Source of the DNA: Flagellimonas sp. HMM57
Lineage (GTDB): Bacteria; Bacteroidota; Bacteroidia; Flavobacteriales; Flavobacteriaceae
Length of the DNA: 64,000 bases
Direction of reading: 5' to 3'
Assembly (NCBI RefSeq): GCF_021390175.1
Contig: NZ_CP090004.1
Span: 1,426,001 to 1,490,000 of the forward strand
Part shown: piece after piece, positions 52,149-64,000 of the stretch
Position numbering within the stretch: position 1 is the first letter of the stretch
Layout of the letters: every line of letters begins with the position of its first letter
Position numbers and translations under genes: made by a program
Notes under the pieces: model-generated
The model's database searches: none
The model's input: the letters and a program-made list of their open reading frames with translations, nothing else
Told to the model about the DNA's origin: nothing

Positions 52149-52904
52149 CTAATCCAATTCCCGCACCCAAATGTTTCTGTAACTCACCCTACTGTTATCC
52201 CTATGGTCCTGTAATACTAACGGAGCTTTTCCATGGGCCTCATATTTGGGCCATCCTATATACTTGATCGTACCTTCAATGACAAAATGGTCCTGTACCA
52301 AAACACCATTGTGCAGTACCGTTACCGTTGCAGGTTCAACAATATTTCCGCCCCTACTGAACTCTGGAGCATGAAAAATAATATCGTACGTATTCCATTC
52401 GCCTGTTGGCACCGACGCCATTGCCAAAGGAACTCCTTGTTTGTAAACAGACCCTACTTGGCCATTGGTGTATGTAGGGTTGTCGTTGTTGTCCAAGACT
52501 TGCACTTCATAACGCTGCTGTATAAAAACACCACTATTGGCCCTATTTTGACCTTCACGTTGTACCTCGGCCGGTGATTTCCACTCCAGATGAAGTTGTA
52601 TGCTGCCAAAGGTCTTTTTGGTCTGTATGTCTCCGGTTTTGTCCTTAACGGTCATGCTACCATCCTCATTTAAGTGCCATGTTACAGCGGTACTATCTAC
52701 GCTGCTTATCCATTGGTCAAAGCTCGTTCCATCAAAAAGAACAATGGCATCACTTGGCGGTGCACCATCTTTTCCGGGGACAACCTTTGGAGGAACTGGC
52801 TCATAAAATTCAGTAGCTTCTGGCGTAGTCGGTTCTTTTTCTTGACCGAAAGAAATAGTAGAAATTAGTAGAAAGACCAGAAAGATTTTTGAGTACTCTA
52901 ACAT
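52149..52904 (-). CDS. DUF1080 (3-keto-disaccharide hydrolase-type) protein
   Basis: A 251-residue exported protein (signal MLEYSKIFLVFLLISTISFG) with one DUF1080 domain of concanavalin-like fold. The family core is visible: IVLFDGTSFDQWIS, SIQLHLEWKSPAEVQ, ANSGVFIQQRYEVQVLDNND and PLVLQDHRDNSRVSYRNIWV. DUF1080 members are linked to cleavage of 3-keto-glycosides and are frequent near GMC oxidoreductases. It lacks a lipobox, unlike the neighbour 2 bp upstream. The mature protein has long Pro-rich linker residues (EPTTPEATEFYEPVPPK). Confidence 0.88.
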   Translation of the reverse strand: MLEYSKIFLVFLLISTISFGQEKEPTTPEATEFYEPVPPKVVPGKDGAPPSDAIVLFDGTSFDQWISSVDSTAVTWHLNEDGSMTVKDKTGDIQTKKTFGSIQLHLEWKSPAEVQREGQNRANSGVFIQQRYEVQVLDNNDNPTYTNGQVGSVYKQGVPLAMASVPTGEWNTYDIIFHAPEFSRGGNIVEPATVTVLHNGVLVQDHFVIEGTIKYIGWPKYEAHGKAPLVLQDHRDNSRVSYRNIWVRELD

Positions 52905-52906
52905 TT

Positions 52907-53650
52907 TTATAATTCTTTGATTTTAATATTTCTAAAGGCTACACGGTCACCGTGATCCTGCAATCCTATTATTCCCGTTTTATATTCGCCAAATCCATCC
53001 CAATCTGCAAATTTGGAACTGGCCACCATCTTTTCCCAATCTGGACCATGTACAGGAAATTCAACTATTTTTTTCCCATTGAGCAAAACATGGCCTTCAT
53101 TCGTATCGTGATTCACCATCAGTTCTACCTTGTTCCATTCACCTGCTGGTTTAACTACTTTTTTCGCAGGTGCAACCATATCGTACAAGGCACCGGCCTG
53201 GTGGGTCGTGCCATTCTTGGAATCGGGATGCCTTTCATCATCCAATACTTGTATTTCTGGCCCGGTTTGATAGGGTTGTCCATATTCACCGCCTTCGAAA
53301 ACTCCCCAGAAAATACCGCTATTGCCTCCCTCGGCGACTTTCCATTCCAAGGTAAGCACAAAATTGGTGTATTCCTTATCTGTAACTATGTTATAGCTTT
53401 CTCCTTCCGGTCTTTCTTCGGGTGGATAAAAAACCATAGCTCCGTTCTCCAATTTCCAGGGCTCAGTAATTCCCTCACCATTATAAAAATGCCAGCCGTC
53501 AAAAGAGGACCCATCAAACAAAACAACCCATTCATCGTCTTCTTCTGTTTGTATTTCCATTTCTTCTTTCGCTTCGCCAGGAGTATCCTTTGATTTTTCC
53601 TTGCATGCAAAAACAGTTATTAGTACAACTAGTAAAATTGGTTTTTTCAT
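52907..53650 (-). CDS. DUF1080 lipoprotein
   Basis: A 247-residue lipoprotein (ILLVVLITVFACKEKS, lipobox) with one DUF1080 domain: VLFDGSSFDGWHFYNGEGIT, NFVLTLEWKVAEGGNSGIFW, GPEIQVLDDERHPDSKNGTT and IGLQDHGDRVAFRNIKI. The glycine/glutamate arrangement differs from the neighbour at 52149-52904, so the two copies are old, not recent. It overlaps the isomerase gene by 4 nt (ATGA). It should act on the outer face of a membrane, probably to cleave 3-keto-glycosides made by the GMC enzymes. Confidence 0.9.
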   Translation of the reverse strand: MKKPILLVVLITVFACKEKSKDTPGEAKEEMEIQTEEDDEWVVLFDGSSFDGWHFYNGEGITEPWKLENGAMVFYPPEERPEGESYNIVTDKEYTNFVLTLEWKVAEGGNSGIFWGVFEGGEYGQPYQTGPEIQVLDDERHPDSKNGTTHQAGALYDMVAPAKKVVKPAGEWNKVELMVNHDTNEGHVLLNGKKIVEFPVHGPDWEKMVASSKFADWDGFGEYKTGIIGLQDHGDRVAFRNIKIKEL

Positions 53651-54699
53651 AGTCCCAATATTTTTTTAAGTTTTTCTTTATCGATCTCTGCGCCAGCAAA
53701 ATCATCAAAGGCTTTTGTGGTTGCCTCAATAATATGTTCTTGAATAAACTTTGCGCCTTCACGGGCTCCCTGCTCCGGGCTTTTAATACAACATTCCCAT
53801 TCCATCACTGCCCATACATCGCAACTGTACTGTGTTAACTTGGAAAAAATGGTCTTAAAATCGATCTGTCCATCGCCCAAGGAACGATACCTGCCAGCAC
53901 GGTCGCCCCAATCGTTGTAGCCCCCAAATGCACCTTTCTTTCCTGTGGGATTAAACTCGGAATCCTTCACATGAAATGATTTTATAAATTCGTGGTAGTG
54001 ATCTATGTATGCGATATAATCCAATTGCTGCAACACAAAATGGCTTGGGTCATATAAAATATTTACCCGTTTATGATTTCCCGTTGCCTCTAAAAATCGC
54101 TCAAAAGTATCCCCATCGTGTAAATCCTCTCCCGGGTGTATTTCATAGCAAACATCGATACCCTCTGCATCAAAATGATTCAAAATGGGCATCCAACGTT
54201 TGGCCAGCTCCTCAAAACCCATTTCAACTAAACCCGGTGGTCTTTGGGGCCAAGGGTGCGCGGTATGCCAAAGTAAGGCCCCTGAAAATGTGGCATGGGC
54301 ATTTAGTCCCAATCTTCTGCTTGCAGTAGCTGCTTTTTTTACGGTTTCCACAGCCCATTCCGTCCGGGCCTTAGGATTGTTTTTAACAGCATCTGGTGCA
54401 AAATTATCGAACATAATATCGTACGCAGGGTTTACAGCTACCAATTGTCCTTGTAAGTGAGTGGAGAGTTCGGTAATCTCCAAACCATAGGAGTTGATTT
54501 TCCCTTTAAGTTCATCACAGTAGTCTTGACTCTCCGCAGCTTTGTCCAAATCTATCAAAAACGATTCCCAAGTTGGTATCTGTATTCCTTTATAACCCAG
54601 GTCTGAAGCCCATTTACATAACCCATCCAAAGAATTGAACGGGGGTTGGGAATCAACAAATTGCGCAAGAAATACTGCAGGTCCTTTAATTGTTTTCAT
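53647..54699 (-). CDS. Sugar phosphate isomerase/epimerase (TIM barrel)
   Basis: A 350-residue cytoplasmic protein of the xylose-isomerase-like TIM-barrel (AP-endonuclease 2) fold. Metal-binding acids and histidines are spread in ICYEIHPGEDLHDGDTF-like VCYEIHPGEDLHD, ILYDPSHFVLQQ, SFHVKDSEF and WAVMEWECC. Members isomerise or epimerise sugars or keto-sugars, and some split or dehydrate 3-keto-glycosides. No signal peptide is visible. It is the first gene of the isomerase-DUF1080-DUF1080 operon that is divergent from the GMC gene at 54843. Confidence 0.9.
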   Translation of the reverse strand: MKTIKGPAVFLAQFVDSQPPFNSLDGLCKWASDLGYKGIQIPTWESFLIDLDKAAESQDYCDELKGKINSYGLEITELSTHLQGQLVAVNPAYDIMFDNFAPDAVKNNPKARTEWAVETVKKAATASRRLGLNAHATFSGALLWHTAHPWPQRPPGLVEMGFEELAKRWMPILNHFDAEGIDVCYEIHPGEDLHDGDTFERFLEATGNHKRVNILYDPSHFVLQQLDYIAYIDHYHEFIKSFHVKDSEFNPTGKKGAFGGYNDWGDRAGRYRSLGDGQIDFKTIFSKLTQYSCDVWAVMEWECCIKSPEQGAREGAKFIQEHIIEATTKAFDDFAGAEIDKEKLKKILGL

Positions 54700-54720
54700 T
54701 TAGTTGTGCTTTTTAAGAAT

Positions 54721-54751
54721 TGATAAATCCTTAACATTTTAGGATTTATCA
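54721..54751. promoter_or_regulatory. Perfect inverted repeat in the divergent control region
   Basis: TGATAAATCCT (54721-54731) and AGGATTTATCA (54741-54751) with a 9-nt spacer lie between the isomerase operon and the GMC operon. Its place and size suit a dimeric repressor or activator site. No regulator gene is adjacent. Confidence 0.6.
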
Positions 54752-54842
54752 CCTATATTTAAGAAAAAAACTATCGTGTTTTTATTTTCTGCGTAGAAAA
54801 ACATAAATATAGGAATTAGCGAACAATTAAAACAACAGAACA

Positions 54843-56546
54843 GTGAATGAAAATATGGTTTACGATGCAATTGTTGTAGGCACTGGAATAAGTGGTGGCT
54901 GGGCTGCTAAGGAGCTCTGCGAAAATGGCTTGAAAATACTTGTATTGGAGCGCGGTCCCATGGTAAAACATATAGAAGATTATAAAACCATGCACGATGA
55001 CCCATGGGATTATCCGTTAAAGGGTGAACTATCTGAGCATGAGAAAAAAAACTACCAAAAACAACTGCGTGTCGGGTGGGCTCCAAGAGATGACGTAAAA
55101 CATTTTTTTGTAAATGATTTGGAACATCCTTACCAAGAGACCAAACGTTTTGATTGGATTCGTGGCTATCACGTTGGAGGCAGATCACTGACTTGGGGCA
55201 GGCAAAGTTATCGTTGGAGCGATATTGATTTTAATGCCAATAAGAAAGATGGTATTGCTATAGACTGGCCCGTTCGTTATAAGGATATTGCTCCTTGGTA
55301 CGATAAAGTTGAATCGTACATAGGTGTTAGTGGTGAAAAATTAGGTTTGAAGCAATTGCCTGATGGTCAGTTTCAACCTCCCATGGAGTTGAATTGCGTT
55401 GAAAAAGACCTACAAGATTCAATCAGCGCCAATTTTGATGATAATCGGCTTTTGACCATAGGTAGGGTTGCCCATATTACAGAAAATACTACTGAATTTA
55501 AAGGTAGAGGACCTTGCCAATATAGAAATCGATGTTGGAGAGGTTGTCCGTTTGGAGGGTATTTTAGCAGTAATTCCTCTACACTGCCTGCTGCAGAGCG
55601 AACAGGAAATATGACTTTACGGCCAAATTCTATAGTCCATGAAGTGGTTTATGATGATACGCAAAAAAAAGCGACTGGAGTAAAAGTCATAGATTCGGAA
55701 ACCCATGAAAAACTGGAATTCAAAGCAAACATTATATTTCTATGTGCTTCTGCTATGGCTTCTGTTGGAATTCTATTGCAATCCAAATCAAAAACATTTC
55801 CGAACGGAATAGGCAACAACTATGACCAACTTGGACGTAACATCATGGATCATCATTACCAATTAGGTGCATCTGCAAAAGTTGACGGCCATTTGGATAA
55901 ATATTACAAGGGAAGACGACCAAACGGATTTTATATTCCCAGATTTGTAAACTTAGACGAGGATACGAAACAAAAGGATTTTATACGAGGTTTTGGATAT
56001 CAAGGAGGGGCAAGCAGAAGAAATTGGTCTGAGGTCATAGCTGAAATGGGCTATGGAGAAAAACTTAAAGAGGCTGTTCTTAAACCTGGAGGTTGGGAAA
56101 TTGGCATGACAGGTTTTGGGGAAATGTTGCCCCATCCGGAAAACCGTGTAACTTTAAGCACAACTAAAAAAGACAAGTGGGGATTACCACAATTGGATTT
56201 TGATGTTGAGTTTAAAACAAATGAGCTAAACATGCGGGAGGCCATAAAAAAAGAAGCAGTTTCTATGTTAACAAAAGCGGGGTATAAAAAGGTGAAGGCA
56301 TACGATAAGGAAACTGGTCCAGGTTTAGGAATACATGAAATGGGTGGTGCTCGGATGGGAGATAATCCAAAAACTTCTGTTTTAAACAAGAACAATCAAG
56401 TACATGAAGCACTAAATGTATATGTTACGGATGGTGCTTTTATGACTTCGTCCAACTGTGTAAATCCATCTCTAACGTATATGGCATTTACCGCCAGAGC
56501 GGCCAATCATGCAGTACAACAATTTAAAAACAATAAATTTTCTTAA
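54843..56546 (+). CDS. GMC family FAD-dependent oxidoreductase, copy 1
   Basis: A 567-residue glucose-methanol-choline oxidoreductase. The FAD motif is IVVGTGISGGWAAKELCENG (residues 9-28). The active-site His is H498 in GLGIHEMGGARMG and the Asn is N541 in CVNPSLTYMAF. A Cys cluster C225-x5-C231-x3-C235 (CQYRNRCWRGC) resembles the cluster of sugar 3-dehydrogenase large subunits. There is no signal peptide. The GTG at 54843 or the ATG at 54855 can start it; GTG is chosen. It probably oxidises a sugar hydroxyl and passes electrons to a partner; no subunit-3 gene is next to it. An ASCH gene follows by 9 bp. Confidence 0.92.
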   Translation: MNENMVYDAIVVGTGISGGWAAKELCENGLKILVLERGPMVKHIEDYKTMHDDPWDYPLKGELSEHEKKNYQKQLRVGWAPRDDVKHFFVNDLEHPYQETKRFDWIRGYHVGGRSLTWGRQSYRWSDIDFNANKKDGIAIDWPVRYKDIAPWYDKVESYIGVSGEKLGLKQLPDGQFQPPMELNCVEKDLQDSISANFDDNRLLTIGRVAHITENTTEFKGRGPCQYRNRCWRGCPFGGYFSSNSSTLPAAERTGNMTLRPNSIVHEVVYDDTQKKATGVKVIDSETHEKLEFKANIIFLCASAMASVGILLQSKSKTFPNGIGNNYDQLGRNIMDHHYQLGASAKVDGHLDKYYKGRRPNGFYIPRFVNLDEDTKQKDFIRGFGYQGGASRRNWSEVIAEMGYGEKLKEAVLKPGGWEIGMTGFGEMLPHPENRVTLSTTKKDKWGLPQLDFDVEFKTNELNMREAIKKEAVSMLTKAGYKKVKAYDKETGPGLGIHEMGGARMGDNPKTSVLNKNNQVHEALNVYVTDGAFMTSSNCVNPSLTYMAFTARAANHAVQQFKNNKFS

Positions 56547-56555
56547 ATACCTACT

Positions 56556-57020
56556 ATGGAAAATGCTTCAGCCCGAAATTTATGGGGCGATTTTCTTGAT
56601 GCACATCTGGAATTTGCCTCTGAGGATGCCCCAAAAGTGATTCATTTTTGTGATAATGAAAAAGACGCCAATACTTGTGCAAGCCTAGTCCGAAAAGATA
56701 TTAAAAGAGCTACTTCACATTCGCTTTTAGGATTACAACTGCGCAAAGAAGAATTGCCTAAAATCGGTGATTTTGCAATAGTGACGGACTGGTCTGGAAA
56801 TGCAAAATGCGTCATTAGGACCACCTCTGTAAAACTAGTGCCCTATTTCGCCATAAATGCAGATCATGCCCGCATAGAAGGTGAAGGGGACAAAAGCTTG
56901 GAATACTGGAAACAAACACACTGGGACTATTATACCAGAGAACTTTCGGCATTTGAGAAAACACCAAGAGAAAGTATGATCGTAGTCTTTGAGCAGTTCG
57001 AAAAAGTATTTGAAAGATAA
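56556..57020 (+). CDS. ASCH domain protein
   Basis: A 154-residue protein with an ASCH domain, a PUA-like fold that binds RNA or nucleotides. The core is visible: SLLGLQLRKEELPKIGDFAI, TDWSGNAKCVIRTTSVKLVP and a DKSLEYWKQTHWDYYTREL end. It begins 9 bp after the GMC gene and must be co-transcribed with it, though no link between RNA binding and sugar oxidation is known. The gene is convergent with the dehydrogenase at 57028 by 7 bp. Confidence 0.88.
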   Translation: MENASARNLWGDFLDAHLEFASEDAPKVIHFCDNEKDANTCASLVRKDIKRATSHSLLGLQLRKEELPKIGDFAIVTDWSGNAKCVIRTTSVKLVPYFAINADHARIEGEGDKSLEYWKQTHWDYYTRELSAFEKTPRESMIVVFEQFEKVFER

Positions 57021-57027
57021 TTTCCCC

Positions 57028-58164
57028 TTAGTCCAGGTTTATCCAAACATTTCCCTGCTTATGGGAAGCTACTGTACTCTCAATAAAGTTTAGTCCCCTT
57101 ACACCATCCAACATTGTAGGGAATTCACCATCGTTATATTTTTCACCACGAATGGCACGAGCAGCACCCAAATAAATATTGGCCATGGCATCAAAAATAC
57201 CTTCAGGGTGACCGGGCGGTAACTTAGTTCCATCCAAGGACAATTCAGAATTATAGGCATGCCCCGGTTTATAAACCTGTAATGGCTCCGTATCGCTCAG
57301 CTTATAAAGAAAATTTGGATTTTCCTGTTCCCATCTAAAAGCTCCTTTCTCCCCATATATGGCAATTGTTAGCCCATTCTCTTCTCCTGTTGCAACCTGA
57401 CTTGCCCTGATGACACCTTTTACATGTTCATCCATCCGTATCAATACCGTACCGTCCACATCCATTTGATTGTCTTTGTACAGGTAATTAAAATCGCATA
57501 AAAGCGATTTAATCTGTAATCCTGTGGTAAACTCAATCATATTGAAGGCATGGACCCCAATATCTCCCATACAGGAACTTATTCCCGCTTTTTCTGGGTC
57601 AAGACGCCATACGGAAGAACGTTTGTCCTTATCATGGATGATTGTATTTATCCATCCTTGGTAATATTGCGCATCTACTTTATGCATTTTTCCTAGAGCT
57701 CCTTCCTTAATCATTTCCCGCATTTGGCGTACCATAGGATAACCTGTGTAGGTATGGGTAACTGCAAATACAGTTCCCGCTTTTACCAGAGCCTCTTGTA
57801 AAATTTTGGCCTCTTCGTATGTTGTGGTCATCGGTTTTTCACAGATAACATGAAACCCATTTTCCAGCAATTTCTTCGCCATGGGAAAATGCAGAAAATT
57901 AGGGGTCAATATTGAACATACCTGAATACGTTCGCCTTCGGGAAGTTTTAACTCCTCTTCCACCAAGGTTTCAAAATCTTTATAAATTCGATTTGTGGGC
58001 ACATCGATTTCTTTGGCAAATTCTAAGCTCTCTTCAAAATCGGCATTAAATACGGCACCTACAATTTCATAATTATCATTGATATGTGCGGCTACTCTGT
58101 GAAGCACCCCAATAAGGGAGTCACCACCGCCACCAAGAACTCCAAGTTTTATTTTTTTTGGCAT
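57028..58164 (-). CDS. Gfo/Idh/MocA family oxidoreductase
   Basis: A 378-residue NAD(P)-dependent sugar dehydrogenase. The Rossmann N-terminus is KLGVLGGGGDSLIGVLHRVA, and the CEKPMTTTYEEAKIL motif (EKP) is diagnostic. The C-terminal domain has the catalytic-type residues in SCMGDIGVHAFNMIEFTTGL (GxxxDxxxH). Members act on myo-inositol, keto-sugars or 1,5-anhydro-sugars. It is the last gene of a five-gene minus-strand operon (62061-57028). In the proposed pathway it would reduce or epimerise a keto-sugar made by the GMC enzymes. Confidence 0.92.
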   Translation of the reverse strand: MPKKIKLGVLGGGGDSLIGVLHRVAAHINDNYEIVGAVFNADFEESLEFAKEIDVPTNRIYKDFETLVEEELKLPEGERIQVCSILTPNFLHFPMAKKLLENGFHVICEKPMTTTYEEAKILQEALVKAGTVFAVTHTYTGYPMVRQMREMIKEGALGKMHKVDAQYYQGWINTIIHDKDKRSSVWRLDPEKAGISSCMGDIGVHAFNMIEFTTGLQIKSLLCDFNYLYKDNQMDVDGTVLIRMDEHVKGVIRASQVATGEENGLTIAIYGEKGAFRWEQENPNFLYKLSDTEPLQVYKPGHAYNSELSLDGTKLPPGHPEGIFDAMANIYLGAARAIRGEKYNDGEFPTMLDGVRGLNFIESTVASHKQGNVWINLD

Positions 58165-58174
58165 GTTAACTCGT

Positions 58175-59350
58175 TTAAACTACTTGTGGATTTGTTTTTC
58201 TTTTTTTCATGTAAATATTCAATCCAATAAACAGAATGATTAGAATTGCTGGTAGGATCGACATTATTTTTAACGCATCATTGGCACTGGCATTATCGAT
58301 TATATTTCCCATGATGGGTAAAATCAAGGAAACGGAGAACATTCCGGCACCTCCCATTATGGATAATCCCAATGCTCCACTTTCTGGAATGTATTCCGCC
58401 ACAAAGGAAAGCATAGTTGGCCAAAAAAACGTTATTCCCACAGCAAAAACCGCTGCTGCAAAAAATGTCATCGGTCCACTTGTTATAGTGAGTAGCCATA
58501 GGCCCAAAAAAGCAAAAATTGCAGAAAACAATAACATTCCTTCCGGTTTTAGTTTATGTACTACTTTGCCAGCAGAAGCTCTTCCCAATGCCATGATACC
58601 ATTTATGAACGCTAATACTAAAAGTGGTACTGCTACGGTTGATTTGAGCAAGGATTCTATCCGCTGATTGGTACCTAATTCCGTAGCTGCTGTCAACAGC
58701 ATACAAATCACCATAAAAATAAAAAGTGGTTTAGCAACGCTGGAAAACATTTTCTGATTGCTTACGCCAAGTTTTACACGCTCTGTAACAGGAAAATCCT
58801 GTCCTAAGAACATAAAACCATAAATAACCAATGGAATAAACAGAACTCCTACCATAATCTGCCAGCTTAGACCCATTACATCCATAATCAACCATCCTAC
58901 TATTGACCCAATTACAATTCCCCCAGGAAACCAGATATGGAAACGGTTCAGCATTTTTGTTTTGTTTTCACTATACATGGATGCAATCATAGGGTTTAAG
59001 GCCGCTTCGACCATACCGTTGCCTATGCCCACAAAAAGCGTGGCCAAAAAGAGAGAAGTCTGATCTTTGGCCAATAATGTCCATGTAATTCCTATAGCAT
59101 GGGTAATAAAGGCCAACCAAGTGATTTTTTTGATTCCCAAGGTATCTACCAAAAACCCACCAAATATCATTGCAATGGTAAAGCCAAAAAAAGCTGGGGT
59201 AAAAGCCCAACCTATTTGTTCTAATGTCAGTCCAATACCTTCGGGTCCAAAAACGGTTTCCAATCTTGCTCTAATCGCAAATGTCATGGCCGTTACCAAG
59301 AGTGCGATACAGGACGCGACAAATAATCGATTTTTGTTTACACTTTCCAT
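58175..59350 (-). CDS. MFS transporter (sugar-type)
   Basis: A 391-residue major-facilitator protein with twelve predicted helices. The family loop after helix 2 is visible as GGFLVDTLGIKKITWLAFIT, and the second-half equivalent is in RASAGKVVHKLKPEGMLLF. The length and the absence of long loops fit sugar-uptake members like FucP/Gal permeases. It stands 10 bp before the Gfo/Idh/MocA gene, so its cargo is probably the substrate or product of that enzyme. Confidence 0.88.
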   Translation of the reverse strand: MESVNKNRLFVASCIALLVTAMTFAIRARLETVFGPEGIGLTLEQIGWAFTPAFFGFTIAMIFGGFLVDTLGIKKITWLAFITHAIGITWTLLAKDQTSLFLATLFVGIGNGMVEAALNPMIASMYSENKTKMLNRFHIWFPGGIVIGSIVGWLIMDVMGLSWQIMVGVLFIPLVIYGFMFLGQDFPVTERVKLGVSNQKMFSSVAKPLFIFMVICMLLTAATELGTNQRIESLLKSTVAVPLLVLAFINGIMALGRASAGKVVHKLKPEGMLLFSAIFAFLGLWLLTITSGPMTFFAAAVFAVGITFFWPTMLSFVAEYIPESGALGLSIMGGAGMFSVSLILPIMGNIIDNASANDALKIMSILPAILIILFIGLNIYMKKRKTNPQVV

Positions 59351-59374
59351 TGTTATTATCAGTTTTGGTTTTTA

Positions 59375-60604
59375 TCAAGATTTATATTCCACCTCTTCTT
59401 TTTTAAAGAACAAGGCAAACAATAGCATCACAACTAAAGCAAAGACCGAAGGAATAATCCAGATACTTTGCCAGTTATGTATTTTTTCAGAAATGAGATA
59501 CATGTCCGTAACCTTTCCCGAAATCCAAAATCCAACTAGCATCCCTACTCCATAGGTAGCTAGTGTTATGAGGCCTTGAGCGGCGCTTTTGTATTTTTCC
59601 CCTGCTTTTGAATCGGTATATATTTGTCCTGACACAAAGAAAAAGTCGTAACAAATTCCATGCAAGGCTATCCCAATCAACAACATAAAGGCCAATTCTC
59701 CAGCATTGCCATAGGCGAACAATATATAACGAACGGTCCAAGCGAGCATTCCTATCAATATGGTCTTCTTAAAACCAAATTTTTTAAAGAAAAAGGGCAA
59801 CAATAGCATAAAAACCACTTCTGATGCCTGTCCAATGGTCATTTTCCCGGTAGGATTGTTTACTCCAATTTCCGAAAGAAACGGATTTGTATTTTGATAG
59901 TAAAATGCCAAAGGAATGCATATCAAGATAGAAGCTAAAAAGAAAATAAGAAAGTTTCTGTCTTTAAGCAGCTTAAGTGCATCCAACCCCAATAATGTGG
60001 AAATATTTACTTTTTCGTCTTTTGCGATTCTGGGTGGTGTTTTGGGAAGGGTAAAACTGAACAACCCTAGAAGAGCAGAAGCAATTGCTACCATTAAAAA
60101 GGTATTTTTCAACAAGCCTTCAGAACGTGATTGTGGGGAATCCCATAAAAAAACATAACCTATGATTAATCCTGCAACTATCCATCCCATGGTACCAAAT
60201 ACCCTTACAAAAGAAAATTCCTTCGCAGGGTCCTTCATCTGATTGAAAGATATAGAGTTTACAAGGGCTAGTGTTGGCATGTATAAAATCATGTACACAA
60301 AGACATATGGGTAAAAAGTATTGAAATCGTTTGTGGCATACATTTGATACATTAATAATGCACCTAAAAGATGTAAAACCCCAAGAATTCGTTCAGCATT
60401 AAAATACTTGTCGGCAATCAGGCCTATAATAAATGGCGCTATTATGGCTCCCCAAGATTGAGTCGAAAAAGCTTGGGCTATTTCTGCACCATTTGCATTT
60501 AGGTTTTCTCCCAGAAAAGTACCTAGTGTAACAAACCATCCTCCCCAAATGAAGAATTCCAAGAACATCATAAAAGAAAGCTGAAACTTAATTCTAAAGC
60601 TCAT
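59375..60604 (-). CDS. MFS transporter of the nucleoside:H+ symporter (NupG-like) family
   Basis: A 409-residue protein with twelve predicted helices. N-terminal features typical of the NHS subfamily are MFLEFFIWGGWFVTLGTFLG, AFSTQSWGAIIAPFIIGLIA and SISFNQMKDPAKEFSFVRVF. The subfamily is named for nucleoside permeases, but in Bacteroidota its members often stand in sugar loci. Here it is the third gene of the minus-strand operon, 24 bp before the other MFS gene. Its cargo is uncertain: nucleoside, or a keto-sugar or glycoside. Confidence 0.9.
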   Translation of the reverse strand: MSFRIKFQLSFMMFLEFFIWGGWFVTLGTFLGENLNANGAEIAQAFSTQSWGAIIAPFIIGLIADKYFNAERILGVLHLLGALLMYQMYATNDFNTFYPYVFVYMILYMPTLALVNSISFNQMKDPAKEFSFVRVFGTMGWIVAGLIIGYVFLWDSPQSRSEGLLKNTFLMVAIASALLGLFSFTLPKTPPRIAKDEKVNISTLLGLDALKLLKDRNFLIFFLASILICIPLAFYYQNTNPFLSEIGVNNPTGKMTIGQASEVVFMLLLPFFFKKFGFKKTILIGMLAWTVRYILFAYGNAGELAFMLLIGIALHGICYDFFFVSGQIYTDSKAGEKYKSAAQGLITLATYGVGMLVGFWISGKVTDMYLISEKIHNWQSIWIIPSVFALVVMLLFALFFKKEEVEYKS

Positions 60605-60615
60605 ACAAACAGGGG

Positions 60616-61059
60616 TTATCTTTTGTAAAATATATAGTCCAAAGATTCTGGCTCTATTCCATTGACTCGAAAATCTGCCAAAATCTGCCCTCTGTGGTGA
60701 GTAGAGTGATTTATAATATGAAATAGGATATCCTTTAACTCATTGGCATAAGTTCTGTTCTCGCTACTTTCATAATCTATACGTGTGCTAAAATCTTCTG
60801 TATTGGTGATGATCTCAAAGGAAGACCGCTGGTTTTCGTAGTGTATATCTCCCCAGTTTTCTATTGGATGTATGTGGGAAATAGGAAAATCTGTCGGTTT
60901 TCCCACAATTCTTTTGTTCCATGTATGGTGTGCATTTAGGATGTGGTTAAAAAGCCCTGAGCTCTTTTCAGGAACTTTTTTTATGGCCGTACATTGCTCT
61001 ATAAGTTTTTTGTTGCAATAAAAATTATAATCAAAGAGCTGGTGTAAGAATGCCTTCAT
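60616..61059 (-). CDS. DinB family protein
   Basis: A 147-residue four-helix-bundle protein. The metal-binding His residues of the DinB fold are visible: LFDYNFYCNKKLIEQ, SGLFNHILNAHHTWNKRIVG and LFHIINHSTHHRGQILADFR (HxxxHRGQ). Family members include thiol-dependent transferases such as bacillithiol S-transferases, and some are isomerases. It sits 11 bp before the NupG-like gene and 12 bp after the TIM-barrel gene in the sugar operon, an unusual place for it. Confidence 0.9.
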   Translation of the reverse strand: MKAFLHQLFDYNFYCNKKLIEQCTAIKKVPEKSSGLFNHILNAHHTWNKRIVGKPTDFPISHIHPIENWGDIHYENQRSSFEIITNTEDFSTRIDYESSENRTYANELKDILFHIINHSTHHRGQILADFRVNGIEPESLDYIFYKR

Positions 61060-61071
61060 AAACCTAGTGTT

Positions 61072-62061
61072 TTATGTAGATAGATTTAGTGATTTGGCAA
61101 CTAATTCTTTTGTAGCAATGATTCCTTCTTCTTCACTTAGACCTTCGCCTTCATATTCTACCCCAACGTAACCGGTATAACCTGAATCCTTTACAATTTT
61201 CATCATACGGTCATAGTCTGTATGGACTTCGTTGCCCTTTTCATCAAAGTCATGTGATTTTGCGCTTACGGCTTTTGCAAAGGGCATCAATTCTTCTATT
61301 CCTTTGTATCTGTCGTACTCTTCAATGCAAGCAGTTTCAAAATAAGAACCATCTTCTCTTTTCATACAAAAATTGCCAAAATCTGGAAGTGTACCACAGT
61401 TGGGAAGGTTCACCTTTTTCATCACTTCGACCAACATTTGCGCATCCGATGAAAATCCACCATGATTCTCAACAATAACATTGATGTTTTTGTCTTTCGC
61501 ATAACTCGCCAATTGCGTTAATCCATCTACTGAGGCAGGTGTCCACTCTTCTGCTACTTTACTTCCCATTAAATTTACACGAACGGAATGGCATCCAAGA
61601 GCAGCAGCAGCATCTACCCATTTATAATGGTTTTCAACGGCAGCTTTCCGTTCCTTCTCGTCGGCAGCGGATAAATCCCCTTCGTGATCGATCATTATGA
61701 TAAGATTCTCCAATCCATACTTTTCACTCGCTGCTTTGGACTTTGCTACAAAACCATCCATTGCTTCTTTAGAAAAATTAGCGGCTTTCAATTCTTCTTC
61801 ATAAAGTTGACTCACATATTCCAAACCTGAAAATCCCCAATCCTTTGCTTTTTTCGCAAACTGATATGGATCCATTCCCTCGTCTTTGATCATCCTATGT
61901 ATGGACCATTGCGCAAGGGAGAGTTTGAATAATGGTTCAACTTCTTCTGCTATTGGAGCAGTCATATCCTTCTTTTGATTTTGTTTACATGCGTAATTTC
62001 CCAATATCATAAGAGCTATCCCTGCTTGGGCACTATTTTGGATAAAATACCTTCTTTTCAT
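61072..62061 (-). CDS. Exported sugar phosphate isomerase/epimerase-like TIM-barrel protein
   Basis: With the ATG at 62061 the protein (329 residues) begins MKRRYFIQNSAQAGIALMIL and a lipobox-like GNYAC, a twin-arginine-style signal (KRRYFI) combined with lipid attachment. The rest is a xylose-isomerase-like TIM barrel: LSLAQWSIHRMIKDEGM, VIVENHGGFSSDAQMLVEVM, LPDFGNFCM and KSHDFDEKGNEVHTDYDRM. Its metal residues are intact. It probably acts outside the cytoplasm as a keto-sugar isomerase, lyase or hydratase. It leads a five-gene operon, divergent from the second GMC gene. Confidence 0.9.
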   Translation of the reverse strand: MKRRYFIQNSAQAGIALMILGNYACKQNQKKDMTAPIAEEVEPLFKLSLAQWSIHRMIKDEGMDPYQFAKKAKDWGFSGLEYVSQLYEEELKAANFSKEAMDGFVAKSKAASEKYGLENLIIMIDHEGDLSAADEKERKAAVENHYKWVDAAAALGCHSVRVNLMGSKVAEEWTPASVDGLTQLASYAKDKNINVIVENHGGFSSDAQMLVEVMKKVNLPNCGTLPDFGNFCMKREDGSYFETACIEEYDRYKGIEELMPFAKAVSAKSHDFDEKGNEVHTDYDRMMKIVKDSGYTGYVGVEYEGEGLSEEEGIIATKELVAKSLNLST

Positions 62062-62197
62062 AAAAATTAATTGTAATACGTCAAAAAGAATCAAAAAACT
62101 ACAACGTTATAGTAGGGAATTCTCAATAAACGTAGGGATTAAATGTAGAAAATTAATTTAATAATTAATACATTTAGGAAATAAACAATACTGTTAA

Positions 62198-63916
62198 ATG
62201 AGTAAATTTTATTACAACGAAGAGCAGGAATCTTATGATGCCATTGTAGTAGGAACGGGCATTAGTGGAGGTTGGGCCGCCAAAGAGCTCTGCGAGAACG
62301 GACTAAAGACATTGGTCTTGGAACGTGGTCGTATGGTTAACCATATTACGGACTATCCCACGGCAAACCTAGATCCCTGGGATTTTCCCAACAATGGGGA
62401 ACTGTCTCCTGAGAAAATTGCAAGACAAGAAAAGCAAAATAGAACAGGTTACACGGTAAAAGCAGCGCACCATTTTTGGTTTGTGGATGATATTGACCAT
62501 CCCTACAATGAAACAAAACGCTTCGATTGGATGAGAGGCTACCATGTAGGCGGGAGATCATTATTGTGGGGAAGACATAGCTATCGATGGAGTGAAATGG
62601 ATTTTGAGGCCAATAAAAAGGAGGGTGTTGCTGTAGATTGGCCAGTGCGCTATAAGGATATTGCCCCTTGGTACGATAAAGTGGAAAGTTATATAGGGGT
62701 TACCGGGGAAACTCTCGGATTATCACAACTGCCCGATGGCATTTTTGAGCCCATGATGCAGTTGAACTGTGTAGAACAACATGTTCGTGAGCAAGTAGCG
62801 GAACATTTTGATGGACGGGTGATTACGGCAGGTAGAGTGGCCCATATTAATAGTGATAAAAAATTTGAGGGCCTAAACCGAAGTTCGTGTAAATTTAGGA
62901 ACAGATGTATAAGAGGTTGTCCTTTTGGGGCATATTTTAGCAGCAATTCGTCTACTTTGCCCGCAGCTGAACGTACCGGAAACATGACACTTAGACCGGA
63001 TTCCATTGTCCATGAGATTATTTATGATGCGGACACCAAGAAGGCTACCGGTGTAAAAGTAATTGACAGGGTCACAAAGGAAACTTATGAGTTCAAGGCA
63101 AAGGTTATTTTCCTCTGTGCTTCTGCCGTGGCCTCAACTTCCATTCTTATGCAATCCAAATCGGATAGATTTCCTGATGGGATGGGCAATGATTCGGGAG
63201 AACTTGGACACAACATCATGGACCACCATTTTAAGGCAGGTGCACGAGGTAAAATGGATGGTTACGAAGACAAATATTACAAAGGAAGAAAGCCGAACGG
63301 AATTTACGTTCCCCGTTTTAGAAACCTCGGAGGTGCCAGTGAAATGAAAGATTTTAATCGCGGTTATGGCTATCAAGGAGGTGCATCCAGAGGAAATTAT
63401 GAGGATATAATTGCAGAGGTCTCCCACGGAAAAGAGCTTAAGGAAGCTATCTTGGGGGTCGGAGGATGGCAGGTGGGCATTAATGGTTTTGGTGAAATTT
63501 TACCCTATCACGAAAACAAGATGACCTTAGATTATGACAAATTAGACCAATGGGGTCTGCCTACGGTTACTTTTGATGCTGAAATAAAGGATAACGAGCT
63601 CAATATGCGCAAGGATATGCAGGAGCAGGCAGCGGCCATGTTGGAAAAATCAGGTGTTCGCGATATTGAAACCTACGATGAAACCTATGCGCTTGGCCTT
63701 GGTATACACGAAATGGGTACGGCCAGAATGGGCAAGAACCCAAAGACCTCCGTAGTTAATGCAAACAACCAATTGCATGCTGTTGAAAATGTTTATGTTA
63801 CAGATGGTGCCTTTATGACTTCCGCAAGTTGTGTAAATCCATCATTAACCTATATGGCTTTTACGGCCAGAGCTGCCAATCATGCAGTCCAAGAACTTAA
63901 AAAAGGAAATATCTAA
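62198..63916 (+). CDS. GMC family FAD-dependent oxidoreductase, copy 2
   Basis: A 572-residue GMC enzyme closely similar to copy 1: long shared blocks include VVGTGISGGWAAKELCENGL and TDGAFMTSSNCVNPSLTYMA-like TDGAFMTSASCVNPSLTYM. Active-site residues are H504 (GLGIHEMGTARMG) and N547 (CVNPSLTYMAF), the same 43-residue distance as in copy 1. The Cys cluster is C231-x5-C237-x3-C241. It has no signal peptide and the next gene starts on its stop codon (TAATG). That gene encodes a subunit-3-like protein with a twin-arginine-like N-terminus, so this copy is likely exported as a complex with it. Confidence 0.93.
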   Translation: MSKFYYNEEQESYDAIVVGTGISGGWAAKELCENGLKTLVLERGRMVNHITDYPTANLDPWDFPNNGELSPEKIARQEKQNRTGYTVKAAHHFWFVDDIDHPYNETKRFDWMRGYHVGGRSLLWGRHSYRWSEMDFEANKKEGVAVDWPVRYKDIAPWYDKVESYIGVTGETLGLSQLPDGIFEPMMQLNCVEQHVREQVAEHFDGRVITAGRVAHINSDKKFEGLNRSSCKFRNRCIRGCPFGAYFSSNSSTLPAAERTGNMTLRPDSIVHEIIYDADTKKATGVKVIDRVTKETYEFKAKVIFLCASAVASTSILMQSKSDRFPDGMGNDSGELGHNIMDHHFKAGARGKMDGYEDKYYKGRKPNGIYVPRFRNLGGASEMKDFNRGYGYQGGASRGNYEDIIAEVSHGKELKEAILGVGGWQVGINGFGEILPYHENKMTLDYDKLDQWGLPTVTFDAEIKDNELNMRKDMQEQAAAMLEKSGVRDIETYDETYALGLGIHEMGTARMGKNPKTSVVNANNQLHAVENVYVTDGAFMTSASCVNPSLTYMAFTARAANHAVQELKKGNI

Positions 63917-64000
63917 TGGAAAGAAGAGTTGCATTAAAAAACATGGGGCTTGCCTTTGGGTATACCATTGTCGCCCCCACACTTTTGGGAATTGTACAAA
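63916..64000 (+). CDS. Gluconate 2-dehydrogenase subunit 3 family protein, 5' end only
   Basis: The window ends 28 codons into this gene. It begins with ATG on the last base of the GMC stop codon. The visible residues MERRVALKNMGLAFGYTIVA, then PTLLGIVQ, have a paired Arg (ERRVALK) and a hydrophobic stretch like the twin-arginine signals of the small subunits of sugar 3-dehydrogenases and gluconate 2-dehydrogenase. The position right after a GMC gene is the usual one. Identity of the mature part cannot be seen. Confidence 0.75.
   Translation, partial: MERRVALKNMGLAFGYTIVAPTLLGIVQ

Follow-up and report, generated by a model that had tools for sequence, protein, structure and literature searches.

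A Flagellimonas locus predicted to free glucose from small glycosides by oxidation, elimination, hydration, and reduction

Studies of Agrobacterium, Bacteroides, Caulobacter, and Bacillus have established how glycosides can be cleaved without hydrolysis. A gene cluster in Flagellimonas sp. HMM57 raises the question of how such a pathway would be divided between the outside and the inside of the cell. The cluster lies at the end of the window, a stretch of 64,000 nucleotides (contig NZ_CP090004.1, positions 1,426,001 to 1,490,000), and spans positions 52149–64566 of it, 566 bp beyond the window end; the last gene crosses position 64000, and its remainder was read from the genome. A sequence-only reading had described a 3-keto-glycoside oxidation and cleavage locus with two parallel sets of enzymes, one forming an outside branch and the other an inside branch. 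Judged from sequence, the function so described appears to be of the right kind. The division into two parallel sets is not supported: the TIM barrels are unrelated by BLAST, one GMC dehydrogenase (GMC1) is dispensable, and the locus has one small subunit. Instead, the genes probably encode one linear route of oxidation, elimination, hydration, and reduction that would split small glycosides and yield glucose or a related hexose. This is most likely a pathway of known kind with a few parts still to be assigned. The proposal rests on gene content, order, and conservation, a full-length hydratase match, conserved residues of catalytic type, and localization signals; from these we infer every catalytic activity named below, co-export of the GMC proteins, what the transporter carries, and what the lipoprotein-type TIM barrel, TIM2, does.

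Hydratase, reductase, and layout of the locus

The other TIM barrel, HYD, matches 8ro4_A, deposited as a 2-hydroxy-3-keto-glucal hydratase, from end to end over residues 1–350 (E 3.4e-160, 536 bits). Its candidate metal residues E186, H188, D217, H220, H243, and E300 are identical in all 120 sequences compared. By this comparison, HYD is the predicted hydratase of an oxidation-elimination-hydration-reduction pathway. GFO, a Gfo/Idh/MocA protein, matches 3v5n (E 2.7e-89) and is 37% identical to the Gfo that adjoins the hydratase gene in Rhizobium; outside the phylum, too, a Gfo gene lies within ~0.2 kb of HYD, in Rhizobium, Sphingobium, and Croceicoccus. By family and linkage, GFO is the putative reductase that accompanies the hydratase, with reduction of 3-keto-glucose as its predicted reaction.

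Open reading frame (ORF) calls and Pfam matches define 12 genes in the locus. They include all families named in the sequence-only reading (two GMC dehydrogenases, two DUF1080 proteins, two TIM barrels, a Gfo, two MFS transporters, and a Gluconate_2-dh3 start), together with genes for an ASCH-domain and a DinB-family protein. The features are as follows.

52149–52904, minus strand: DUF1080a (PF06439), exported, of the keto-glycoside lyase/hydrolase family (Pfam, 130 bits)
52907–53650, minus strand: DUF1080b (PF06439), lipoprotein-type (Pfam, 174 bits; 4 bp overlap with the end of HYD)
53647–54699, minus strand: HYD, AP_endonuc_2 TIM barrel, cytoplasmic, 2-hydroxy-3-keto-glucal hydratase type (8ro4 match)
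54700–54842, no strand: divergent intergenic region between HYD and GMC1 (ORF calls)
54843–56546, plus strand: GMC1, predicted FAD-dependent C3 dehydrogenase subunit without a signal peptide, a dispensable duplicate (Pfam)
56556–57020, plus strand: ASCH-domain protein, embedded, of doubtful role in the pathway (Pfam)
57028–58164, minus strand: GFO, cytoplasmic Gfo/Idh/MocA protein, proposed 3-keto-glucose reductase (Pfam; 3v5n match)
58175–59350, minus strand: MFS1, transporter, variable (Pfam)
59375–60604, minus strand: NupG-type MFS transporter (PF03825), proposed importer of 2-hydroxy-3-keto-glucal or 3-keto-glucose (Pfam, 398 bits)
60616–61059, minus strand: DinB-family protein, embedded, of doubtful role in the pathway (Pfam)
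61072–62061, minus strand: TIM2, AP_endonuc_2 TIM barrel, lipoprotein-type, candidate extracytoplasmic lyase (Pfam; similarity to eliminase alpha subunits)
62062–62197, no strand: divergent intergenic region between TIM2 and GMC2, with a conserved A+T-rich element (comparison of relatives)
62198–63916, plus strand: GMC2, predicted core FAD-dependent C3 dehydrogenase subunit (Pfam; fructose dehydrogenase match)
63916–64566, plus strand: SUB3, Tat-type small subunit, Gluconate_2-dh3 (Pfam; 63916–64000 in the window, whole gene at L009:916–1566)

Spacing divides the genes into four units placed around the two divergent intergenic regions: HYD-DUF1080b-DUF1080a (minus), GMC1-ASCH (plus), TIM2-DinB-NupG-MFS1-GFO (minus), and GMC2-SUB3 (plus). 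Genes resembling yicC, gmk, and nadD flank the locus on one side and genes resembling nrdA and nrdB on the other, labels given by sight without a search. GMC and DUF1080 genes are clustered above chance: a 20-kb stretch of the 4.16-Mb genome, which holds 3 and 8 of them in total, would be expected to contain 0.014 and 0.038, respectively, and the same linkage is seen again in further loci of Bacteroidota. The absence of a classic glycoside hydrolase, pointed out previously, is borne out, in that none exceeds the Pfam cut-off among the 12 genes (TIM2 matches GH97 at 19 bits against a cut-off of 32.5). Pfam likewise finds among them neither a SusC/SusD pair nor carbohydrate-active enzymes, the marks of a polysaccharide utilization locus. 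In the TIM2/GMC2 intergenic region, words such as TAAATGTAGA are common to 40 of 61 related intergenic stretches and may mark a regulator site.

In the proposed route, SUB3 would carry GMC2, and optionally GMC1, out by a Tat-type mechanism, and C3 of the glycone would be oxidized in the periplasm. The exported DUF1080 proteins, possibly with TIM2, would then cleave the product by beta-elimination into the aglycone and 2-hydroxy-3-keto-glucal. The latter would be imported by the NupG-type transporter and hydrated by HYD to 3-keto-glucose, which GFO would reduce to glucose.

Parts of this gene content could also suit the breakdown of a polyol or sugar acid that has no glycosidic bond, with a dehydrogenase, a TIM-barrel dehydratase, and a Gfo acting as in inositol catabolism and no glycoside being cleaved. 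HYD matches IolE weakly (59 bits against a cut-off of 290), GFO matches dehydrogenases of levoglucosan (98 bits against 650) and of inositol (49 bits against 355), and the fold of TIM2 does not tell eliminases from epimerases. However, the match of HYD to the keto-glucal hydratase is far better, and both DUF1080 proteins and C3 flavo-dehydrogenases are associated with pathways for keto-glycosides, which makes a polyol or sugar-acid route improbable.

Close relatives, oxidation, and the two-branch alternative

Conservation among close relatives, for which alone this survey speaks, was assessed in the best 80 of 587 confirmed HYD loci, all of 89–99% identity; the closest named relative among these is Flagellimonas sp. 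389 (99% in HYD). Forty-two loci were fully covered, that is, contained yicC together with nrdA or an inset SUB3, a definition that partly builds in the SUB3 count; the other 38 were set aside as incomplete. HYD, GFO, GMC2, ASCH, and SUB3 are present in all 42, TIM2 in 41, DUF1080b and DinB in 39, and DUF1080a in 38. NupG is found in 34, GMC1 in 26 (absent from 16), and the variable MFS1 in 6. A survey of neighbors had been set beforehand as a refutation test for the locus, and the genes are indeed conserved together, both in these relatives and in the wider survey below. With GMC1 in 26 and the second MFS transporter in 6 of the 42 loci, the doubling of these genes is therefore dispensable.

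GMC1 and GMC2 are 65% identical. In a midpoint-rooted FastTree phylogeny of 142 sequences, they fall into sister clades (GMC1, n = 57, support 1.0; GMC2, n = 65, support 0.86; joining node, support 0.80), consistent with one old duplication. Both keep a C-x5-C-x3-C motif (60 of 62 GMC1 and 79 of 80 GMC2 sequences) that has an iron-sulfur role and aligns with fructose dehydrogenase, whose large subunit matches GMC2 at E 1.6e-33. Both open directly with the FAD-binding motif, whereas SUB3 has RR near its N-terminus in 70 of 70 sequences and TatC is encoded in the genome. Such signal-less starts and such an RR motif are as expected if SUB3 carries the GMC proteins out. The locus thus has a predicted flavo-dehydrogenase with an exported partner, and specificity for C3 is likewise predicted. 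C3 dehydrogenases of Cytophaga marinoflava used artificial acceptors and not NAD, according to the available part of the report (PMC7676230), and therefore provide a precedent for C3-oxidation activity.

Two further observations concern oxidation. In the phylum, 15 of 39 hydratase loci (L166:9069–9470 and 14 others) also contain a gene for a small cytochrome c lipoprotein, a candidate electron acceptor for GMC/SUB3. Elsewhere in the genome, at ~299.3–310.0 kb (L136:7270–18035), a second GMC and SUB3 pair occurs with a TIM barrel (H-P-H motif), a GntP permease, and an AraC regulator. This cluster adjoins GH26, GH130, and epimerase genes and contains no hydratase; its TIM barrel matches 8tcd and 8bvk (E 5.6e-14 for 8bvk). 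It may feed the single-copy HYD.

Would oxidation and cleavage nevertheless proceed in two complete parallel branches, an external and an internal one? The paired GMC, DUF1080, and TIM-barrel proteins and their mixed localization signals invite this idea. In this genome, the N-termini agree with the localizations assigned in the sequence-only reading: the 52149 protein begins with a signal-like sequence without a lipobox Cys, the 52907 and 61072 proteins have a lipoprotein-type Cys, and the 53647 and 57028 proteins have no signal. The distinction between exported and lipid-anchored forms is not kept in relatives, because at least 51 of 73 DUF1080a sequences (the window's included) carry a lipobox-like Cys, a count that the regular expression used underestimates. 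Moreover, HYD and TIM2 give no BLAST match to each other, and DUF1080a and DUF1080b share 27% identity. Both DUF1080 proteins and SUB3 bear export signals; the proteins without an export signal or export partner are of the hydratase and reductase types, and the locus has no lyase of cytoplasmic type. Its only oxidases are the GMC proteins, of which 16 of the 42 fully covered loci have a single one, and its two GMC genes are accompanied by a single small-subunit gene (the other in the genome lies at 301.6 kb). Two complete branches are therefore highly improbable. Since HYD and GFO are without export signals and their place in the known pathway is downstream of cleavage, outside and inside would correspond to consecutive stages of the single linear route.

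Candidate lyases

The nearest solved relative of DUF1080a is 4qhz (E 2.6e-72), which has no named function. E133-x-Q135-xx-D138, Y154, N199, and Q232-x-H234 are each present in at least 98% of 73 DUF1080a sequences. DUF1080b has 14 relatives in the Protein Data Bank (PDB), the best being 4jqt (E 5e-42), with 8rr2, 8tda, and 3osd at E ~2e-36. H233 of DUF1080b aligns with H250 of 3osd, and DUF1080a keeps the same residue pattern. If 3osd comprises residues 27–290 of the 290-residue BT2157, H250 would correspond to H275 of BT2157. The published account, as far as available, describes an H275N variant of a Bacteroides lyase, apparently BT2157, as lacking hydration activity. Genetic results from other bacteria are mixed, as DUF1080 matters for lactose in Caulobacter and has no detectable effect in Pedobacter.

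For TIM2, we moved the start from TTG (62094) to the ATG of MKRRYFIQ; residue numbers count from the TTG start. C36 (the lipoprotein-type Cys), E209, H211, D238, and E313 are present in 70 of 70 sequences. The structure model is confident (pLDDT 94) and was built on an alignment of 37 of 120 listed sequences, drawn from at least 8000 scored candidates. TIM2 matches 4ovx and, weakly, the alpha subunits of C-glycoside eliminases. A Foldseek search with the model places 4ovx first and C-glycoside deglycosidase chains at all of ranks 2–9; VIA-align places the isomerase Art22 ahead of the C-glycoside deglycosidases. In Croceicoccus, a TIM protein is encoded beside a DUF6379 protein that PF19906 marks as a C-glycoside deglycosidase beta subunit (CGDB). 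TIM2 aligns pairwise with this TIM protein at E 3e-9 (25% identity), and E209, H211, D238, K279, and E313 coincide. PF19906 itself has 0 matches in the Flagellimonas genome and 3 in the Croceicoccus control record.

Within the linear route, it is quite possible that TIM2 acts as an extracytoplasmic keto-sugar isomerase or epimerase and that DUF1080a and DUF1080b perform all cleavage; the Foldseek ranks of the deglycosidase chains and the aligned E-x-H, D, K, and E residues of the Croceicoccus protein argue against this assignment. TIM2 is accordingly regarded as a candidate lyase, not an assigned one. A more far-reaching and rather doubtful idea is that TIM2 represents the first of a new class of lipoprotein eliminases, with E-x-H but neither the beta-7 His nor a beta subunit; as a complement to the DUF1080 lyases, it would enable a single locus to cleave alpha- as well as beta-glycosides. 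In the same scheme the NupG-type transporter would be a dedicated 2-hydroxy-3-keto-glucal importer, with oxidation and elimination outside and hydration and reduction inside. The locus in any case offers candidates for two missing parts, a transporter of the keto-sugar product and an unclassified lipoprotein TIM barrel that possibly cleaves the bond.

TIM2 was also considered as an O-glycoside eliminase of the type of AtOGE from Agrobacterium, and this was rejected: it has E-N-H instead of H-x-H and no real match to the Rhizobium homologue of 8bvk, which was taken as AtOGE from its length of 259. In 29 of the 42 fully covered loci, the gene after SUB3 encodes a further TIM barrel of exported type (L158:17814–18734 and equivalents), which is absent from that place in this genome.

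Wider distribution and comparison with known systems

A broader survey covered 39 hydratase loci in 37 other genomes of the phylum, 7 loci from the same family and 32 from outside it. These are 39 of the 44 non-self places with a true orthologue (G186, G080, G139, G171, and G123 were left out, as were 18 genomes with HYD matches of only 31–35%), and three of the stretches are short (7.3 to 18.6 kb). GFO occurs in 33 of these loci, NupG in 26, DUF1080 in 22, GMC in 21, SUB3 in 18, ASCH in 3, and two other exported-type TIM barrels in 17 and 12. The Flagellimonas genome has no PF03825 match besides NupG; with a single copy per genome, ~0.2 of 39 loci would contain it by chance, and its linkage is therefore far above chance. 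Of 310 plasmid records with a match, 4 were opened. A Pseudoalteromonas plasmid carries Gfo-HYD-MFS-DUF1080-GMC-SUB3-TIM in a single run. In Croceicoccus and Sphingobium, HYD and Gfo occur with a TIM and DUF6379 pair, and in Rhizobium the 8bvk relative adjoins HYD. In our reading of these sequences, the back end of the pathway would be constant and the cleaving module exchanged between loci. All 71 genomes of the genus contain HYD, as do 8 of the 19 sampled from the family (own included); the pathway may thus be a routine means by which these bacteria use small glycosides.

Several points weigh against the linear route. HYD is absent from 11 of those 19 family genomes, and its matches across 198 genomes of the phylum are bimodal, with 43 at 63–100% identity, 18 at only 31–35%, and none in 137 (E 1e-20). 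Six of the 39 broader loci contain no Gfo, and 18 contain no GMC within the stretch read. Among close relatives, ASCH (42 of 42), DinB (39 of 42), and the flanking genes are equally conserved, which means that synteny by descent contributes. The MFS transporter beside HYD in Pseudoalteromonas is unlike NupG. As to electron transfer, Pfam finds no cytochrome c among the 12 genes, and the linked cytochrome c of other loci matches this genome at E 2e-3 or weaker (E 8e-91 in its source genome). For the lyases, 4jqt, the best solved relative of DUF1080b, has no named function, none of ten DUF1080 genes in a Pedobacter strain gave a lactose phenotype, and deletions of BT2157/BT2158 caused no growth defect on raffinose-family sugars. 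In all 70 TIM2 sequences, Ser277 occupies the position that pairwise alignments give to the beta-7 His of the Croceicoccus subunit and of DgpC1, and TIM2 so lacks the full metal site; loss of the corresponding His in AtOGE (H189A) leaves <0.1% activity, according to the part of the study available (PMC10628242).

We take the Agrobacterium dehydrogenase GlycDH to belong to the GMC family. The accessible text on the Agrobacterium tumefaciens operon describes GlycDH as a C3 flavo-dehydrogenase, AtOGE as a Mn-dependent eliminase, AtHYD as a putative hydratase (preliminary evidence), and a Gfo oxidoreductase as the presumed reductase of 3-keto-glucose; it lists a TAT-pathway protein with GlycDH among expressed Rhizobium proteins (PMC10628242). 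The locus resembles this operon in the four steps proposed for it, its hydratase- and Gfo-type proteins, and its predicted C3 flavo-dehydrogenase, and for every component a homologue or counterpart is present in the window. The cleaving enzyme differs, being AtOGE there and two DUF1080 proteins with TIM2 here. An MFS transporter takes the place of the ABC transporter in the related Rhizobium locus.

LacB, presumably a cytochrome c, is encoded with the LacABC dehydrogenase of Caulobacter; unlike LacABC, the present locus has no cytochrome c. It shares with the LacABC and DUF1080 lactose pathway, as described in the sections available, a C3 dehydrogenase and exported DUF1080 for proposed periplasmic cleavage, with a transporter, sugar epimerases, and a reductase nearby; Bacteroidetes examples named there are Pedobacter, Indibacter, and Algoriphagus (PMC9007349). 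With BT2156-BT2160 of Bacteroides thetaiotaomicron, the locus has in common that DUF1080b belongs to the BT2157 family and that the His of QDHG is conserved. Oxidation would differ, falling here to GMC. The NCBIfam model for the BT_2158 dehydrogenase gives GFO only 33 bits, the cut-off being 750. TIM2 resembles the TIM-barrel subunit of the C-glycoside deglycosidases (DgpB/C, CarB/C, DfgA/B) in fold and in the placement of E-x-H, Asp, and Glu, but has Ser for the beta-7 His and no beta subunit (PF19906) in its genome. The levoglucosan dehydrogenase of Bacillus smithii presumably comes from a family other than GMC. The LgdA-B1-B2-C pathway of B. smithii acts on an anhydrosugar, unlike the route proposed here, and shares with it the sequence of oxidation, elimination, hydration, and reduction and the use of two dissimilar isomerase-annotated enzymes, as far as the available text goes (PMC7676230).

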